Shown here piece by piece: positions 19,815-27,657 of a DNA stretch of 64,000 bases (its first letter is position 1; every line of letters begins with the position of its first letter). Made by a program: the position numbers and the translations under genes. The stretch is from NCBI RefSeq assembly GCF_000379825.1, contig NZ_KB903837.1, positions 256,762-320,761 of the forward strand, written 5' to 3'. Below the pieces are notes generated by a model. It made no database searches and had not been told where the DNA came from. It was given only the letters and a program-made list of their open reading frames with translations. Source of the stretch: Longispora albida DSM 44784 (GTDB taxonomy: Bacteria; Actinomycetota; Actinomycetes; Mycobacteriales; Micromonosporaceae).

Positions 19815-21818
19815 ATGCCTGACCAGTACCTCGCTGACTCGGCCCGGACCGGCCGGTTCTCCTTCGGCGCCCCCCGGGCCATTACCGTGACCTCCGGCGG
19901 CTCCGGCCTGCTCCTTCTTCGTTCCAGTGGCCCGTCAGACCCGGTCGACGCACTGTGGACGGTCGATGTGGCCACCGGTGCCGAGCGGCGGCTCGCCGAC
20001 CCACTCGACCTCTTCGGCCGGCCCGTCGCCCGGGAAGATCTGCCGGCGGCGGAAAGGATGCTGCGGGAGCGGCTCCGGCTCCAGGCGGCCGGGATCGGGT
20101 CGTACGCGAGCGACGGCGAGGTCGCGGTCTTCACACTCGGCGGCCGGCTGTTCGAGGTGACCCTCAGCGGTGCCGAGACCCGGGAGATCGAGACGGGCGG
20201 CCGGGCCTGGGACCCGCGCCCGAGGGCCGGCCGGGTGGCGTACGTCGAGGACGACGCCGTGTACGTGACCGGGATCGGGCAGCTCACCCCCGACGACGGC
20301 GCCCGGTGGGGCATCTCCGACTTCAACACCGCTGAGGAGCTGGGCCGCAGCCGGGGCCACTGGTGGCTCGACGACGGCACGCTGCTGATCGTCCGGACCG
20401 ACGAGTCGATGCTCAGCCGCCGCCACGTCGCCGACCCGGCCAGCCCGGAGGAGCCGGTGGCCACGTTCGCGTATCCGCTGGTGGGCGGCCCGATCGCGGA
20501 CACGGCGCTGTACGTGGTGGCGCTGGACGGCACGCGGAACGAAGTGATCTGGGACCGGCAGACCTATCCGTACCTGACCGAGGTGGACGGCCGGATCATC
20601 ACCGTCTACGACCGGCTCCAGCAGAACTGCCAGCTGCTGGAGATCACGAAGGGCGGGCAGACGACGCAGCGGGCCGCGCTGGCCGACGAGTACTGGATCG
20701 AGCAGGCCGGCGGCCTCCCGGCCCTGCTCGACGACGGCCGGATGCTGCACACGATCGACGGCGAGACGCGCTCGCTGGCCGTGGGCGGCAAGGTCATCAC
20801 GCCGCCGGAGCTGTACGTGCGCCGCTACGCAGGCGTCCTCGGCGACGAGCTGGTCATCGAGGCCGGCGTCGGCGACCCCTCCGAGCAGCACCTCTTCCTG
20901 GTCACGCTGGACGGCGAGCTGACCAGGCTCACACACCAGCCCGGTGTGCACAGCGCCATCACGGGCGGCGCGACCATCGTCGTCACGAGCGCCACCGTGG
21001 ACGGTGTTGTCCGCACGGCTGGCGGGCACACGCTGACCGACCTGGCCGCCAAGTTCCCGTACCGGGTGGAGCCGATCCTCGCCCGCGTGACCGAGCACCA
21101 GATCCCGACCGCCGTCGTGTACCCGCGCGGCCACGTGCCCGGCACCAAGCTGCCCGTGCTCATCGACATCTACGGCGGGCCCGGGTACCAGGACATCGCG
21201 CTGGAGCCGCGCCGCTGGAACAAGAAGCAGTGGTGGGCCGACCAGGGCTTCGCGGTCGTGACGATCGACAACCGTGGTACCCCGAACGTGTCGCCGGCCT
21301 TCACCCGCGCCATCTTCCGCGGCTGGTCGCAGGTCGTGCTCGACGACCAGGTCGCCGCGCTGCACGAGCTGGCCGCCGCGCATCCCGACTTCGACCTCAC
21401 CCGGGTCGGGATGCGCGGCTGGTCCTACGGCGGGTACCTGTCGGCGCTCGCGGTGCTGCGCAGGCCGGACGTGTTCCACGCTGGCTCGGCTGGCGCGCCG
21501 CCGACCGACTTCCGGTGGTACGACACGGCGTACACCGAGCGGTACCTGGGGCTGCCTGCGGAGAACCCGGATGGCTACGCGGCCGACGCGCTGATCGGCG
21601 ACGCGGCGAAGCTGAGCCGGCCCCTGCTGCTGATCCACGGGTACGCCGACGACAACGTGCACCCGCTGCACACGGTCCGGCTGTCGGAGGCGCTGACCGG
21701 TGCCGCCCAGCCGCACAACGTCCTCATGCTGCCGGGCGTGAGCCACATGACGCCGCCGGGGCTCCAGGAGGACCTGGCGCTGATCGAGCTCGACTTCCTG
21801 CGGAAGGCGCTCGGCTGA
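19815..21818 (+). CDS. S9-family serine peptidase (dipeptidyl-peptidase IV/prolyl oligopeptidase-like)
   Basis: The 667-aa protein has an N-terminal beta-propeller (residues about 40-400) and a C-terminal alpha/beta hydrolase. The catalytic triad is visible: Ser537 in GWSYGGYLS, Asp in GYADDNVHP (612/613), and His644 in VSHMTPP. There is no signal peptide, so it is probably cytoplasmic. S9 enzymes cut short or unfolded peptides, often after Pro; some class III lanthipeptide clusters use S9 proteases to trim leaders. The stop is one base from the GH36 start and the run continues to the peptide genes at 24.4 kb, so a peptide-processing role is possible but inferred. Confidence 0.88.
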   Translation: MPDQYLADSARTGRFSFGAPRAITVTSGGSGLLLLRSSGPSDPVDALWTVDVATGAERRLADPLDLFGRPVAREDLPAAERMLRERLRLQAAGIGSYASDGEVAVFTLGGRLFEVTLSGAETREIETGGRAWDPRPRAGRVAYVEDDAVYVTGIGQLTPDDGARWGISDFNTAEELGRSRGHWWLDDGTLLIVRTDESMLSRRHVADPASPEEPVATFAYPLVGGPIADTALYVVALDGTRNEVIWDRQTYPYLTEVDGRIITVYDRLQQNCQLLEITKGGQTTQRAALADEYWIEQAGGLPALLDDGRMLHTIDGETRSLAVGGKVITPPELYVRRYAGVLGDELVIEAGVGDPSEQHLFLVTLDGELTRLTHQPGVHSAITGGATIVVTSATVDGVVRTAGGHTLTDLAAKFPYRVEPILARVTEHQIPTAVVYPRGHVPGTKLPVLIDIYGGPGYQDIALEPRRWNKKQWWADQGFAVVTIDNRGTPNVSPAFTRAIFRGWSQVVLDDQVAALHELAAAHPDFDLTRVGMRGWSYGGYLSALAVLRRPDVFHAGSAGAPPTDFRWYDTAYTERYLGLPAENPDGYAADALIGDAAKLSRPLLLIHGYADDNVHPLHTVRLSEALTGAAQPHNVLMLPGVSHMTPPGLQEDLALIELDFLRKALG

Positions 21819-23483: not shown

Positions 23484-24371
23484 GTGCGGGTACGGGGGTA
23501 CCGGGACGAGGACTTCCCGGCTGTGGTGGAGGCCGTGGCCGGCTGGATCGCGGCGGCGGGCCGGGCCGGGTACGACCACGTGGGCGAGATCCCGCACCGG
23601 ATCTACGAGAACCTGCGCGGCCGGTACCCGGTGGGCGACGTCGTGCGGCTGTGGGCGGACGAGGGCGGGATCGCGGGGCTGGCGATCTGCCGCCGCTTCG
23701 GGAACGCCTTCGACGTGTTCACTGCGCCCCGGCTGCGCGGTACCGAGGCCGAGGCCGCGATGATCCGGCATGCCGTGGAGGTGACGGCGGCCGGGACGAG
23801 CGAGGAGTACGTGCTCACGGACGTGTGGGACTCTGACGCTGCCCGGGTGGAGGTGCTGGAACGGCTGGGCTTCGAGTACTTCCGGGTCTGGGACGACATC
23901 CGGGAGCGGGATCTGGCCCGGTTGCCGCCCGTCTCCACAGTGGATCGATATGTCGTCCGCAGTGCCACCTTGGACGACGCCGGCCAGCTCGCCGAAGCGC
24001 GGAACCAGTCGTTCGGCGAGGACTGGACGGGGCGTCAGTACCGGGACGCCGTGATGACCAAGCCGGGCTACGATCCGGCGCGCGAGATCGTGGCTGTGAC
24101 GGCGGACGGGCGGGTCGCCGCGTACACCGTGTGGTGGTCCGATCCGGTCAACGGGATCGGGCACTTCGAGCCGGTCGGTACACACCGGGAATTCCAGCGG
24201 CAGGGCCTCGGGCGCGCCGTCATGCTGCACGCCATGCATGCCATGCGCGCTGCTGGACTGACTCGCGTGACCGTCAACCACAACGCGGAGAACGTCCCAG
24301 CGGAGGCGCTCTACACCAGCCTGGGCTTCGTCGGCAGCGGCCGGACACTGGGCTTCAAAGTCAAGGTCTAG
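23484..24371 (+). CDS. Tandem GNAT-fold acetyltransferase
   Basis: The 295-aa protein contains two GNAT-like halves. The first (residues about 1-150: VRVRGYRDEDFPAVVEAVAGW to VEVLERLGFEYF) has lost the clear acetyl-CoA loop. The second (155-295) is intact, with GTHREFQRQGLGRAVMLHAMHAM as the acetyl-CoA binding motif A and a typical ALYTSLGFVGSGRTLGFKV end. It should transfer an acetyl group to an amine; the substrate is unknown. I favour the GTG at 23484 with GGGAG upstream; another GTG overlapping the GH36 stop (23469) is possible. The gene continues the S9-GH36 run and precedes the two small peptide genes. Confidence 0.8.
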   Translation: MRVRGYRDEDFPAVVEAVAGWIAAAGRAGYDHVGEIPHRIYENLRGRYPVGDVVRLWADEGGIAGLAICRRFGNAFDVFTAPRLRGTEAEAAMIRHAVEVTAAGTSEEYVLTDVWDSDAARVEVLERLGFEYFRVWDDIRERDLARLPPVSTVDRYVVRSATLDDAGQLAEARNQSFGEDWTGRQYRDAVMTKPGYDPAREIVAVTADGRVAAYTVWWSDPVNGIGHFEPVGTHREFQRQGLGRAVMLHAMHAMRAAGLTRVTVNHNAENVPAEALYTSLGFVGSGRTLGFKVKV

Positions 24372-24441: not shown

Positions 24442-24606
24442 ATGCGCGCTGAGGACGTCGTCCGTTCCTGGAAGGACCCGGACAACACGGCTGCCGACCA
24501 CCCGGCCGGGCAGATCTCGCTCGCGGTGACCGCGATCGCCGGCTGGCCGTTCAGCGACCTGATGGACTGCACGACCTTCCCGAACGACGAAGACGAGATC
24601 TGGTAA
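24442..24606 (+). CDS. 54-aa peptide A with a mersacidin-type lanthipeptide leader
   Basis: The ATG at 24442 has GGGAG 6 bases upstream. Residues 4-13 (EDVVRSWKDP) and 20-24 (HPAGQ) match the leader of mersacidin/lichenicidin-family precursors (pattern I-I-R-S-W-K-D-P ... N-P-A-G). The C-terminal part contains one cysteine, Cys43, followed by Thr44-Thr45-Phe46 and an acidic tail ending DEIW. Aligned without gaps to peptide B, 28 of 54 residues are identical. A single Cys and no LanM gene nearby make a classical multi-ring lantibiotic unlikely; a different modification or signal peptide is possible. Confidence 0.75.
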   Translation: MRAEDVVRSWKDPDNTAADHPAGQISLAVTAIAGWPFSDLMDCTTFPNDEDEIW

Positions 24607-24646
24607 CAGGCCGCCCGGCGGCGGCCAGAGAAGGCAGGGGCACACC

Positions 24647-24811
24647 ATGAGCGCGGAAGACGTCGTCCGGTTGTGGAAGGATCCCGACCGCACCAGCCCC
24701 GGCCACCCGGCGGGGCAGATCATGCTCGACCGGAGCGGTGACCACCCCACCACCGGCAGCGACGTGGTCCTGTGTACCAGCTTCGAGTCCGAGGAGGACG
24801 ACCTCTGGTAG
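24647..24811 (+). CDS. 54-aa peptide B, paralogue of peptide A
   Basis: The peptide has the same length as peptide A. The ATG at 24647 has AGGGG 6 bases upstream. Conserved positions are the leader (Ala3-Glu4-Asp5-Val6-Val7-Arg8, Trp10-Lys-Asp-Pro-Asp14, His20-Pro-Ala-Gly-Gln-Ile25), Ser38-Asp39, Cys43-Thr44, Phe46, Glu50-Asp51 and the C-terminal Trp54. The stretch 28-37 diverges completely (DRSGDHPTTG in B). That pattern, a fixed leader and a fixed C-terminal Cys-Thr-x-Phe...acidic-Trp tail, suggests the tail is functional. It lies 32 bases before the proposed regulator start. Confidence 0.75.
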   Translation: MSAEDVVRLWKDPDRTSPGHPAGQIMLDRSGDHPTTGSDVVLCTSFESEEDDLW

Positions 24812-24843: not shown

Positions 24844-27657
24844 GTGCTGGTCGGCCGCGAGCGCGAACTCGCCGCGCTGTCCACTGTGCTGCGCGACGCG
24901 ATGGCCGGGGCAGGTCAGGCCGTGTTCCTGCTCGGCGAGGCAGGCATCGGCAAGTCCCGGATGGCCGCCGAGCTGAGCAGGGTCGCGGTCACCACCGGCG
25001 CGCGGGTCCGCAGGGGCCGGGCCGGCGGGGCCGTGGCCGGGATACCGTTCCGGCCGCTCGCCGAGGCGCTGGCCCCGCTGTTCCACGACGGCGTACCGGA
25101 GTCGCTGGCCGGGCTGCTCGGCCCCAGCTGGCCGCACAGCACCGTCGAGCACTCGCCGATCCTGCTCGGCGAGGCCGTGCTGCGGCTGCTCGCCGCGGAC
25201 AGCGCGGCCGGCGGCTGCCTGCTGGTACTGGAGGACCTGCACGAGGCCGACACCGACACGCTGGCCGTGGTGGAGTACCTGGCGGACAACCTCGGCGGCC
25301 ATCGCGTCCTGCTCGTGGCCACCACCCGCCCCGAGCCCTGCCCGGCCGTCGACCTCGCCTACTCGGCCGCCCAGCGCCGGGCCGCCGGGATCACGACTCT
25401 GGGGCCGCTGACCGCCGGGCACGTACGCGAGCTGTCGGCCGGCCTGCTCGGCGTGCCCGCCGGCGCGCTGCCCGCCGAGCTGGCCGCGCGGGCCTGGCGG
25501 GACAGCGAGGGCAACCCGTTCGTCGTCGAGGAACTGCTCGCCGGGGTGCGCCTGGTCCGCAGCCACGGGCGGTGGGTACCGGAGGATCCCGGCACGCCGG
25601 CCTGGGACGGCGTACCGGCCACCGTCGCCGCGAGCGTCAACCAGCGGGCGGCGAAGCTCGGCGGGGACCTGCACGCGCTGCTGCGGTTCGGGGCACTGCT
25701 GGGGCGGCGGTTCCCGTACCAGGTCGTGGCGGCGGCCGCCGGTACGAAGCCGGGGGTGCGGGCCGGTGTCGACGCCGGGCTGCTGGCGCCGGACCAGGCG
25801 GAGCCCGGCTGGTATGTGTTCCGGCACGCGCTGACCGCAGAGGCACTGCTCAGCCAGCTCCTGCCCGAGGAACGGTCCGCGATGGCCGAGACGATGGCGC
25901 GGACCATCCACGAGATCCACAGTGGACTGCCGGGCGACTGGTGCCAGCTGTCGGCGGCGCTGCTCGCCGACGCCGGCGACCGTGCCGGGGCTTCGCAGCT
26001 TTTCGCGGAGGCCAGCCGGCGCGCGCTGGGCGCGGGCGCTGCCGGATCGGCCCTGGCGCTGATCGACCGGGCGCTGGCCCTCCACGGCGACCTGAGAGCC
26101 GAGCCATGGGCGCTGGACCTGCTGCTGACCGTGCTCAGCGCCGTCGGCGAGGTGGACAGGGCACTCCTCCTGGAACGGGACCTCGCCCAGCTGTCCGGCA
26201 GGCTCCAGCCCGCCGACCTCGCCGTGCTGCACGCGCGGATCGCCGGCGCGGCACTGATCGCCGGGCGGAGGGCTGCCGGGCTCGCCCAGATCGCCATCGC
26301 CAGGGACCTGCTGGGCGGGTCGAGCCTGCCGCTGCTCGACGTGATCGAGGCCCGCGCCGTGCAGGGCAAACCGGGGCCGGGCGGCTGGGCGCGCGCCGAG
26401 GAGCTGGCGCTGCGCGCGGTCACAGACCCCGACCCGCAGGTCAGGTACCAGGCGCTCAAGGTGCTGGGGTTCGCCGCCCGGCTGCGCAGTGCCGAGGAGA
26501 CCGAGCAGATCTTCAGCCAGATGCTGCGCATCGCCGACGAGATCGGGGTGGCGGGCTGGCGGATCGACGCGCTGGTCCACCTGGGTACCAACGACGCGCT
26601 CCACATGGGACGGCCGGGGAGGCTGGAGGCTGCGCGGGCCGAGGCGGAGCGGTCGGGCTCCGTGCACGTGTACAGCCAGATCGACTGCCTGCGCGTCATG
26701 ATCATGGTGCAGAACGGGGACTACGAGCTGGCTTCCGCCCTGATCGCCGAGGCGCTGCCGATGGCGGCCCGCACCAGGCGCGGGCAGGTGACCAGGTACC
26801 TGATCCTGGGGCAGGCGATCCTGGCCGGCCACCAGGGGGACAGGGCCGGAGTCGCCAGGCACATGGCGGAGCTGACGGCGCTGGGCGGGGACGGTACCCA
26901 CTACCCGCCGATCGGATGGGGCCTGGCCGACGCGGTGTGCGCACTCCTGGAGGAGGACCGTGACCGGGCCAGGGCCCAGCTCGACCGCGCAGCCGAACAG
27001 GAGAGGGCTACCGAGAGCCCGTACGGGCTGTCCGGCCGCTTCGGCCTGCGCCTCCTGCTGGGCGTCCTGTCTGGACGATCGGGCTGGGGTGACTACGAGC
27101 AGCTGACGGCCGACGCCCGTACCCGGATGCGGTGGAACGCCCAGTTCGTCGCGGCCAGCCGCGCCGTGCTGCTCGGCCGGGACGGCGACGGCGAAGCCGC
27201 GGCGGGAGCGATGGCCGAGTCGGCAGCCCTGTCGGAGACCTATCCGCTCGCCGCGCACCTGATCCTCAGGCTGGCCGCCGAGGAGGCGCTGACGGCCGGC
27301 TGGGGGGACCCGGTCGGCTGGGCGCGGACGGCGGAGAGCTTCTTCCACGCGCACGGGCTGACCGCTGTGGCAGCGGCCAGCCGTGCGGTGCTGCGCTCGG
27401 CGGACGCCCGGGTGTTCCAGCACCGGCGCGGCTCGGAGAAGGTACCGGAGGCCGCGCGGCTGGCCGGGGTGACCGTCCGCGAGTACGAGGTGCTGGAGCT
27501 CCTGGCCGGGCAGCTCAGCAACGCCGAGATCGCCGAACGGCTGTTCATCTCGGTGCGGACGGTCGAGAAACACGTGGCGAACCTGATCGGCAAGCTGGGC
27601 CTGCCCGGCCGCCGGGGAGCACGATCCTATCTGGACGGCGTCAGGCCGCCACGTTGA
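24844..27657 (+). CDS. Large ATP-binding LuxR-family regulator (LAL/MalT-like)
   Basis: The approximately 937-aa protein opens with LVGRERELAAL and a STAND-type ATPase: Walker A GEAGIGKSRMA and Walker B LLVLEDLHEADTDTL. A long helical (TPR-like) middle follows, then a C-terminal LuxR HTH (LTxRE-like VTVREYEVLELLAGQLSNAEIAERLFISVRTVEKHV, which ends in an approximately 65-residue domain). LALs integrate ligand sensing with activation of metabolic or antibiotic genes. The start is uncertain: the GTG at 24844 fits the family N-terminus but has only a distant GAGG; an in-frame GTG at 24772 inside peptide B is possible. It probably controls the peptide genes. Its 3' end overlaps the convergent ohr gene by 17 bp. 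Confidence 0.85.
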   Translation: MLVGRERELAALSTVLRDAMAGAGQAVFLLGEAGIGKSRMAAELSRVAVTTGARVRRGRAGGAVAGIPFRPLAEALAPLFHDGVPESLAGLLGPSWPHSTVEHSPILLGEAVLRLLAADSAAGGCLLVLEDLHEADTDTLAVVEYLADNLGGHRVLLVATTRPEPCPAVDLAYSAAQRRAAGITTLGPLTAGHVRELSAGLLGVPAGALPAELAARAWRDSEGNPFVVEELLAGVRLVRSHGRWVPEDPGTPAWDGVPATVAASVNQRAAKLGGDLHALLRFGALLGRRFPYQVVAAAAGTKPGVRAGVDAGLLAPDQAEPGWYVFRHALTAEALLSQLLPEERSAMAETMARTIHEIHSGLPGDWCQLSAALLADAGDRAGASQLFAEASRRALGAGAAGSALALIDRALALHGDLRAEPWALDLLLTVLSAVGEVDRALLLERDLAQLSGRLQPADLAVLHARIAGAALIAGRRAAGLAQIAIARDLLGGSSLPLLDVIEARAVQGKPGPGGWARAEELALRAVTDPDPQVRYQALKVLGFAARLRSAEETEQIFSQMLRIADEIGVAGWRIDALVHLGTNDALHMGRPGRLEAARAEAERSGSVHVYSQIDCLRVMIMVQNGDYELASALIAEALPMAARTRRGQVTRYLILGQAILAGHQGDRAGVARHMAELTALGGDGTHYPPIGWGLADAVCALLEEDRDRARAQLDRAAEQERATESPYGLSGRFGLRLLLGVLSGRSGWGDYEQLTADARTRMRWNAQFVAASRAVLLGRDGDGEAAAGAMAESAALSETYPLAAHLILRLAAEEALTAGWGDPVGWARTAESFFHAHGLTAVAAASRAVLRSADARVFQHRRGSEKVPEAARLAGVTVREYEVLELLAGQLSNAEIAERLFISVRTVEKHVANLIGKLGLPGRRGARSYLDGVRPPR

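Follow-up and report, generated by a model that had tools for sequence, protein, structure and literature searches.

Tandem lanthipeptide-type precursor genes beside a LAL regulator in Longispora albida, a probable LanM-less member of a LanM-precursor-LAL gene set

The locus described here lies in a window of 64,000 nt from Longispora albida DSM 44784 (the whole stretch of DNA that was analysed) and consists of two tandem peptide genes followed by a LAL regulator gene. Among described systems, the twin peptides share their leader pattern with the class II precursors of the mersacidin/lichenicidin type, and their relatives adjoin LanM proteins that pass the model TIGR03897. However the twins differ from that class in that they score below the TIGR03898 cut-off, contain one Cys and have neither LanM nor LanT at the locus, and the cores of their family are mostly Cys-free. 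The regulator displays the AAA_16 domain, helical-repeat superhelix and LuxR HTH of the MalT/LAL STAND regulators, and its model finds 6mfv and 8bob in Foldseek, but it differs from these by a RiPP-type precursor gene directly 5′, as found at 6 of 7 paralogues, although many relatives in its clade are without one. To our knowledge, the ligands of LAL regulators are largely unknown.

Several precursors with similar leaders scattered in one genome that has few LanMs are also characteristic of the prochlorosin type; here, in contrast, each precursor or tandem pair lies beside its own regulator. The accessible part of PMC10783134 places prochlorosins in the Nif11 family. Cys-free cores and dehydration without lanthionine are shared with the cyanotins, the LanM/LanKC clusters (PMC7268733) and the LanMbC of the dehydrazoles (PMC10676384), as far as the available portions of these papers describe them. 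In the present loci, however, a LAL adjoins, and the loci were found mostly through LAL. According to the same portion of PMC10676384, the dehydrazole LanMbC carries a class III cyclase domain, unlike the LanMs treated here. In pneumococcus, too, a predicted lantibiotic cluster is linked to a TPR-type regulator and its small peptide, the TprA/PhrA system (PMC6753895, accessible text), but LAL differs in being a STAND ATPase whose peptide carries a LanM-type leader. In gene order the window locus also resembles an RRNPP-like pair, with a small peptide gene beside a helical-repeat putative receptor. The features of the locus are as follows.

19815-21818, forward strand: S9 peptidase (Pfam Peptidase_S9), upstream of the twins, the nearest protease gene noticed
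Upstream, between the S9 peptidase and GNAT genes, forward strand: glycosidase-like protein (Raffinose_syn, just below its cut-off)
About 23484-24371, forward strand: GNAT protein (Pfam Acetyltransf_1), upstream of peptide 1
24442-24606, forward strand: ORF of precursor peptide 1, 54 aa (leader-like residues 1-27 at 24442-24522)
24553-24579, forward strand: core motif of peptide 1, S38-D-L-M-D-C43-T-T-F46, aligned with S-x4/6-C-T-[TS]-[FL] of peptide 2 and of loci L064 and L023
24647-24811, forward strand: ORF of precursor peptide 2, 54 aa (leader-like residues 1-27 at 24647-24727)
24758-24784, forward strand: core motif of peptide 2, S38-D-V-V-L-C43-T-S-F46, from the same motif alignment
24844-27657, forward strand: LAL/STAND regulator, 937 aa, with AAA_16, helical-repeat superhelix and LuxR HTH (GTG start inferred from homology; longest ORF from 24772)
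Downstream of the regulator, reverse strand: OsmC and MarR proteins

Both 54-aa ORFs given in the initial annotation were located, and a recount confirmed that 28 of 54 residues are identical without gaps. The ribosome sites had been called good; purine-rich stretches do precede both ATGs, but they are adequate rather than strong. The gapless identity is 20/27 in residues 1-27 and 8/17 in residues 38-54, with 0/10 in residues 28-37, the stretch previously said to vary. When one peptide was shuffled, the mean was 3.5 matches and 28 was reached by 0 of 20,000 shuffles; with residues 28-54 the mean was 1.9 and 8 was likewise reached by 0 of 20,000. GC per codon position is 0.60/0.47/0.91 in peptide 1 and 0.64/0.47/0.93 in peptide 2, and the twins show an NG86 dN of 0.42 and dS of 0.67 (dN/dS 0.62). 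The fixed tail that had been described (Cys43-Thr44-x-Phe46, Glu50-Asp51, Trp54) holds in the twins, but the invariant S38-D39 had been overlooked, and the invariant core is S38-D39...C43-T44-x-F46...E50-D51..W54. Residues for a possible ring are present in both twins as the one Cys and a conserved Ser five residues ahead of it. No GG that could mark a double-Gly cleavage site is found in either twin; by eye, IAG in peptide 1 and RSG in peptide 2 are at most possible sites, and no signal sequence is evident.

The leader had been assigned to the mersacidin type. A lanthipeptide-type leader is supported, but with TIGR03898, the NCBIfam model for mersacidin/lichenicidin, the twins score 13.8 and 13.9 bits, below the cut-off of 23.5. 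Thus the mersacidin likeness of the twins is weak on its own, and gains weight from their relatives. A Pfam search with the twins gave a sub-threshold TetR_C_28 match to peptide 1 as its single result, which was dismissed as chance. A back-translated pattern search of genome contigs for close relatives of peptide 2 confirmed 0 of 150 stretches.

The inferred start of the regulator is 32 bp past the stop codon of the second peptide. Its frame is without a stop over 937 aa, the Walker A residues and the HTH are kept, and Pfam detects AAA_16 (2.8e-20) and GerE (9.2e-13). The AlphaFold2 model (mean pLDDT 91.0, pTM 0.75) predicts that the ATPase part extends to about residue 330 and is followed by helical hairpins at about 331-852 and an HTH at about 869-933. 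The first Foldseek match of the model is 6mfv, a STAND protein with TPR (3.3e-12), then Avs3, with MalT (8bob) at 5.3e-6; TM-scores by query length are low (0.29 for 6mfv, 0.20 for 8bob), thus the likeness is of parts. Residues 108-400 also match the model TOMM_kin_cyc, RiPP-linked by name, at 99 bits with a cut-off of 706. Upstream, 70 bp separate the GNAT stop from peptide 1, thus there is no room at that place for a LanM remnant. A crude motif test for the ABC ATPase of a LanT-type exporter found none in ORFs starting at 16-33 kb of the window, and none in L021-L024 and L028 either. A search of 21 genomes for the glycosidase-like gene, used as a synteny marker, found it in one, its own.

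The window lies on contig C24 of its genome (G000); contigs C2, C8, C11, C23 and C25 are other contigs of that genome. The absence of a LanM from the window was corroborated and extends to all of C24, where no LANC_like or DUF4135 match is found. A synthetase elsewhere in the genome had been suggested, and a genome search for LanM gave four DUF4135 loci, none on C24:

C2:846-848 kb (L021): full LanM with DUF4135 and LANC_like, all three zinc ligands (C-C-H) present
C2:736 kb (L022, 4915-6834, reverse strand): dehydratase-only protein without cyclase domain, beside a Thr-rich precursor and LAL
C25 (L025): LanM with C-C-H ligands and a precursor-like ORF upstream
C8:2000-14000 (L027): LanT/C39 and a LanM without the first part of the dehydratase domain, with a recombinase gene overlapping the LanM start

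With TIGR03897 (cut-off 304), L021 scores 700 bits and the dehydratase-only L022 scores 438 bits; L022 aligns to residues 87-568 of the 979 of LicM2. A search with peptide 2 revealed three further paralogues at E 4.4e-4 or better (C2:848754, C2:735835 and C2:493337), and a six-peptide profile together with TIGR03898 added those at C23:151442 and C11:23477. The regulator clade has seven paralogues in the genome at 438 bits or more, the next match being at 43 bits. Six of the seven have a leader peptide directly 5′, so the association with the downstream regulator suggested in the initial annotation is repeated within the genome, as it is in many others. The peptide of the C11 paralogue (L028) is divergent (profile 1.5e-4) and Cys-free, and the most distant regulator, at C2:446019, has no leader peptide. 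The precursor leader of L021 is the closest to that of window peptide 2 (64% over residues 3-27), and the twins also resemble the L021 precursor in their acidic-Trp end. The L024 peptide, with no adjoining LanM, has kept two Cys and, like the LanM-linked peptide of L063, a DDDWWVW end, which would be expected if it were a substrate in trans.

The genus was sampled by two genomes, that of the window and a second one, and both hold an intact LanM. The second genome has four loci: two with LanM-precursor-LAL, one with a dehydratase-only protein and one with precursor-LAL. Its dehydratase-only protein (L065, 6436-8520, reverse strand) is a LanM without cyclase domain beside a Thr-rich precursor and LAL, the counterpart of L022. 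A peptide without LanM is found at five loci in the genus (the window, L023, L024, L028 and L064). In the window group, the LanM-less peptides have the motif S-x4-C-T-[TS]-[FL] in common (x6 in L023), located 20-22 residues after HPAG, and the residues between HPAG and the S-x4/6-C motif vary among them; the peptides of the dehydratase-only loci are without the S-x4/6-C-T-[TS]-[FL] motif. The Cys-Thr-x-Phe...Trp tail, which had been offered as the mark of a subfamily, is real in the twins but local: CT[TS][FL] is found in 4 peptides from 3 loci in the two genomes of this one genus, and an acidic-Trp end in 5 of 73 collected precursors, all from the genus. The LALs of the two other loci with the same core motif are 46% identical to the window LAL. 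A LAL tree of 121 rows, made by a quick method with two loci entered twice, places the window together with the dehydratase-only L022/L065 and the LanM-less L023/L064 at support 99, on long branches, and groups L021, L024 and L063 at support 100; several long-branch joins were flagged, including L023-L064 and L021-L063.

Outside the genus, named genomes were scanned by LAL alignment and the best 80 loci of 226 relatives were taken, thus chosen through LAL and likeness. In 72 of these 80 best named loci (71 at 1.5 kb), LAL is preceded on its own strand by a LanM ORF that ends no more than 1.7 kb away. The other eight comprise one with LanM on the opposite strand, five with a contig end less than 0.75 kb upstream, and two with 2.7 kb and 9 kb free of LanM. 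In L189 (Kribbella) there is a precursor-profile match and no LanM in 9 kb upstream, with a LanM elsewhere in that genome. The unit is found in taxa that include Streptomyces, Kitasatospora, Saccharothrix, Lentzea, Actinophytocola, Micromonospora, Kribbella and Sphaerisporangium; the plasmid collection gave two records with a partial LAL match. Up to 6 kb from LAL, the crude motif test detected ABC ATPase motifs in 2 of the 80 named loci, some of which have shorter flanks, and one of the two is inside LAL itself. The twins do not form the isolated orphan first supposed, the locus being one LanM-less case of the LanM-precursor-LAL gene set, and they very probably belong to the LAL-linked precursor family of that system. 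Homologues always near a LanM and with several core Cys had been named as evidence against a new subfamily; most homologues do adjoin a LanM, but most cores are Cys-free. A literature search of titles and abstract openings found no description of the LanM-precursor-LAL unit; Zhang 2015 (AEM), reportedly the source of the LanM/LanKC clusters, may describe part of it.

Within the taxonomic family of the window, a LAL search at 1e-80, with at most four candidates scored per genome, found LAL in 39 of 200 genomes. Thirty LAL loci were returned, 15 with a LanM-like ORF, 9 with a precursor-profile match and 14 with neither, and the window alone among them has the peptide without LanM. Family LAL loci without LanM were refetched with longer flanks, and 19 of 19 (a set that overlaps the 30) had neither LanM nor precursor. 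Seven of the 15 loci with LanM gave no precursor-profile match; either the profile or the flanks miss some, or the precursors differ. Twenty family regions collected from peptide-profile matches have LanM in 19 and a strong LAL match in 6. The precursors in such regions without LAL mostly have several Cys, like ordinary lanthipeptide precursors. The LAL-linked precursors thus carry a LanM leader that is general in actinobacteria. Thus outside the window's genus, the peptide in this family goes with LanM and not with LAL as such.

Precursors were collected with an iterated profile from 93 loci (the 80 named and 13 from the window's own and other genomes), which yielded 73 precursors in 72 loci; some of the 21 loci without a profile match hold a precursor outside the scanned stretch or were seen by pattern. 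Peptides 1 and 2 match at 6e-10 and 4e-9, both being in the training set. Among the 6,399 ORFs of 30-170 aa that the 80 loci contain, the profile gave 55 matches just before LAL and 11 elsewhere, a distribution that is partly by construction since the profile was trained on these precursors. Of the 11, three lie between LanM and an over-long LAL call, two represent second copies, five come from a different LanM/LanT cluster and the last is beside the inverted LanM. A second Cys-free precursor copy past LAL, on the opposite strand, is seen in L156 (12006-12212, reverse strand) and L121 (12133-12339, reverse strand).

The last 30 residues are Cys-free in 58 of the 73 precursors, and a loose C-terminal Thr/Ser-Val-Ser-like pattern is found in 48. 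The zinc ligands of CylM are Cys, Cys and His in the available portion of PMC4550811. These are intact in 34 and changed in 34 of the 68 named LanMs longer than 600 aa (L113-L192; four shorter LanM ORFs were left out). The dehydratase motifs K-P-R, D-x-H-x-x-N and D-x-E are kept, in the aligned segments, in all 34 ligand-changed LanMs; among the intact-ligand rows, the dehydratase part of L159 aligned in a mixed frame. Ligand-changed LanMs beside LAL occur in Streptomyces and relatives, and the adjoining precursors were found without core Cys. A Cys in the last 30 residues is present in 8 of 32 precursors by C-C-H LanMs vs 1 of 26 by ligand-changed LanMs, where the single Cys belongs to the leader motif of a stretch-cut ORF (Fisher p = 0.033 counting this Cys, 0.0063 without it). 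The 15 precursors with no LanM row above 600 aa or a missing cyclase domain were left out. A link between core Cys and an intact zinc site is only suggestive, because the rows are related, and 24 of the 32 cores by intact LanMs are Cys-free.

The Cys-free cores, the changed ligands and the kept dehydratase motifs together suggest that the wider family keeps dehydration rather than ring formation. The accessible part of PMC10676384 reports for class II enzymes that excised dehydratase domains suffice for dehydration. Parts of this picture are already in print, as judged from the available portions of two papers: Cys-less LanM precursors were seen earlier in LanM/LanKC clusters (PMC7268733), and 179 single-Cys precursors have been predicted (PMC11251773).

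The most likely fate of the twins, to which we give about an even chance on comparative grounds, would be modification in trans by the intact LanM at C2:846-848 kb. Residues 1-27 would serve as the LanM-type leader, the LanM gene being absent at the window locus, and the distant enzyme would dehydrate residues and form one lanthionine between Ser38 and Cys43. LAL, whose gene lies 32 bp downstream, would control the pathway and perhaps respond to the peptide through its helical-repeat part. That the adjacent LAL senses the peptide is a tentative proposal, on balance doubtful. In this scheme we infer trans modification, the ring, export or retention of the product, and sensing. Modification in trans is favoured because the LanM-less peptides conserve a Ser-Cys pair, both genomes hold an intact LanM, and elsewhere the peptide goes with LanM. 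However the LAL group of the window has as its only LanM relatives proteins without the cyclase domain, thus the system needs no ring there, and the intact LanM may accept no precursor but its own. We also know of no acidic-Trp end among the features of known lantibiotics.

A different role, in which the peptides act unmodified as ligands or inhibitors of the adjacent LAL, would have the leader-like part bind the regulator and be kept after loss of LanM, with the Cys as free thiol or in a disulphide. TPR superhelices bind peptides in known systems, which favours this role, as does the persistence of the peptide beside LAL at the five LanM-less loci of the genus. The TprA/PhrA precedent, a TPR-type regulator and peptide on a predicted lantibiotic cluster, also agrees with it, in so far as the accessible text of PMC6753895 describes that pair. 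However, clade LALs with neither peptide nor LanM are common, thus LAL in general does not need the peptide. The 14 of 30 and 19 of 19 sampled LAL loci outside the genus with neither, joined by L029 of the window's own genome, argue against a general peptide-LAL pairing; they lower the standing of the unmodified ligand and of the broader signalling scheme given below, and raise slightly that of trans modification and of an ordinary lantibiotic. The W-K-[DN]-P...H-P-A-G leader pattern is moreover found in the precursors of an ordinary LanM/LanT cluster (L133), and both genomes of the genus hold intact LanMs, and so an unmodified ligand is considered unlikely. The leader type and the S-x4-C spacing would equally suit an ordinary lantibiotic or other antimicrobial whose synthetase lies elsewhere, LAL being merely a pathway activator. 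This is improbable given the lack of ABC exporter motifs by the crude test at the window (16-33 kb), L021-L024 and L028, with only 2 of the 80 named loci positive, and given that rings are not conserved in the wider family, where 58/73 precursors are Cys-free and 34/68 LanMs ligand-changed.

Decay after loss of LanM, with drifting peptides, would fit the absent LanM, the long LAL branch and the twin dN/dS of 0.62, but it is poorly reconciled with the coding GC3, the presence of two copies in tandem, the recurrence of the core motif at two other loci and a LAL open over 937 aa with Walker A residues and HTH kept; a relic is thus highly improbable. Action of a neighbouring enzyme on the peptides is suggested by the same-strand, tightly spaced GNAT and S9 peptidase genes upstream. 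Inspection by eye of the genes listed for the other paralogous loci did not show them, and of the 21 genomes searched for the intervening glycosidase-like gene only the window's own has it, so that such a role can be given hardly any credence.

Together with trans modification of the twins, a broader scheme should also be considered, although it is unlikely to hold as a whole: a signalling system widespread in actinobacteria, whose LanM, in many cases no more than a dehydratase, would make a dehydrated, mostly uncyclised peptide that a partner MalT-like STAND regulator senses intracellularly. In the window's genus the system would have multiplied, to six peptide-regulator loci in one genome, of which several would have shed LanM and would share one in trans. 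If this is true, lanthipeptide enzymes across actinobacteria make signals for STAND regulators rather than antibiotics, LAL regulators gain a concrete candidate ligand, and the LanM cyclase half has decayed on two or more occasions, by loss of the domain in the window's genus and by change of the zinc ligands in Streptomyces, with rings not needed. The precursors concerned are discarded by the mining rule for Cys-free cores in the available portion of PMC7268733. The unit is of more interest as a family than as a pair.

Other genes also recur near these loci. A gene group typified by an NRPS is found in 39 of the 80 loci and one typified by an MFS protein in 30, mostly downstream and on the other strand (one member of each was annotated). 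In Streptomyces, as at L154 (11996-20795) and comparable loci, the triad adjoins an MFS protein and an NRPS that has two modules and a thioesterase. Given the NRPS and MFS groups near them, the triads may steer an NRPS pathway in Streptomyces. Further recurring groups are of a phosphopantetheinyl transferase type (14 loci) and a small LuxR regulator type (28 loci). After the triad in Sphaerisporangium (L133, 13729-20869) come another LanM, a C39-domain LanT and five precursors in tandem. Their leaders read ELI(R/S)QWK(N/D)P..HPAG, and a CC pair is present in the four complete ones, the fifth being cut by the end of the stretch. One precursor of this LanM/LanT cluster was tested with TIGR03898 and scored 17.0 bits, also below the cut-off. 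At L203, L204 and L208, the short peptides that precede other LALs of the clade combine a hydrophobic stretch with an end rich in Gly and Cys (GCAGCGNGEA in L208). L203 has YcaO and TfuA genes too, which hints at other RiPP chemistries beside the same type of regulator.
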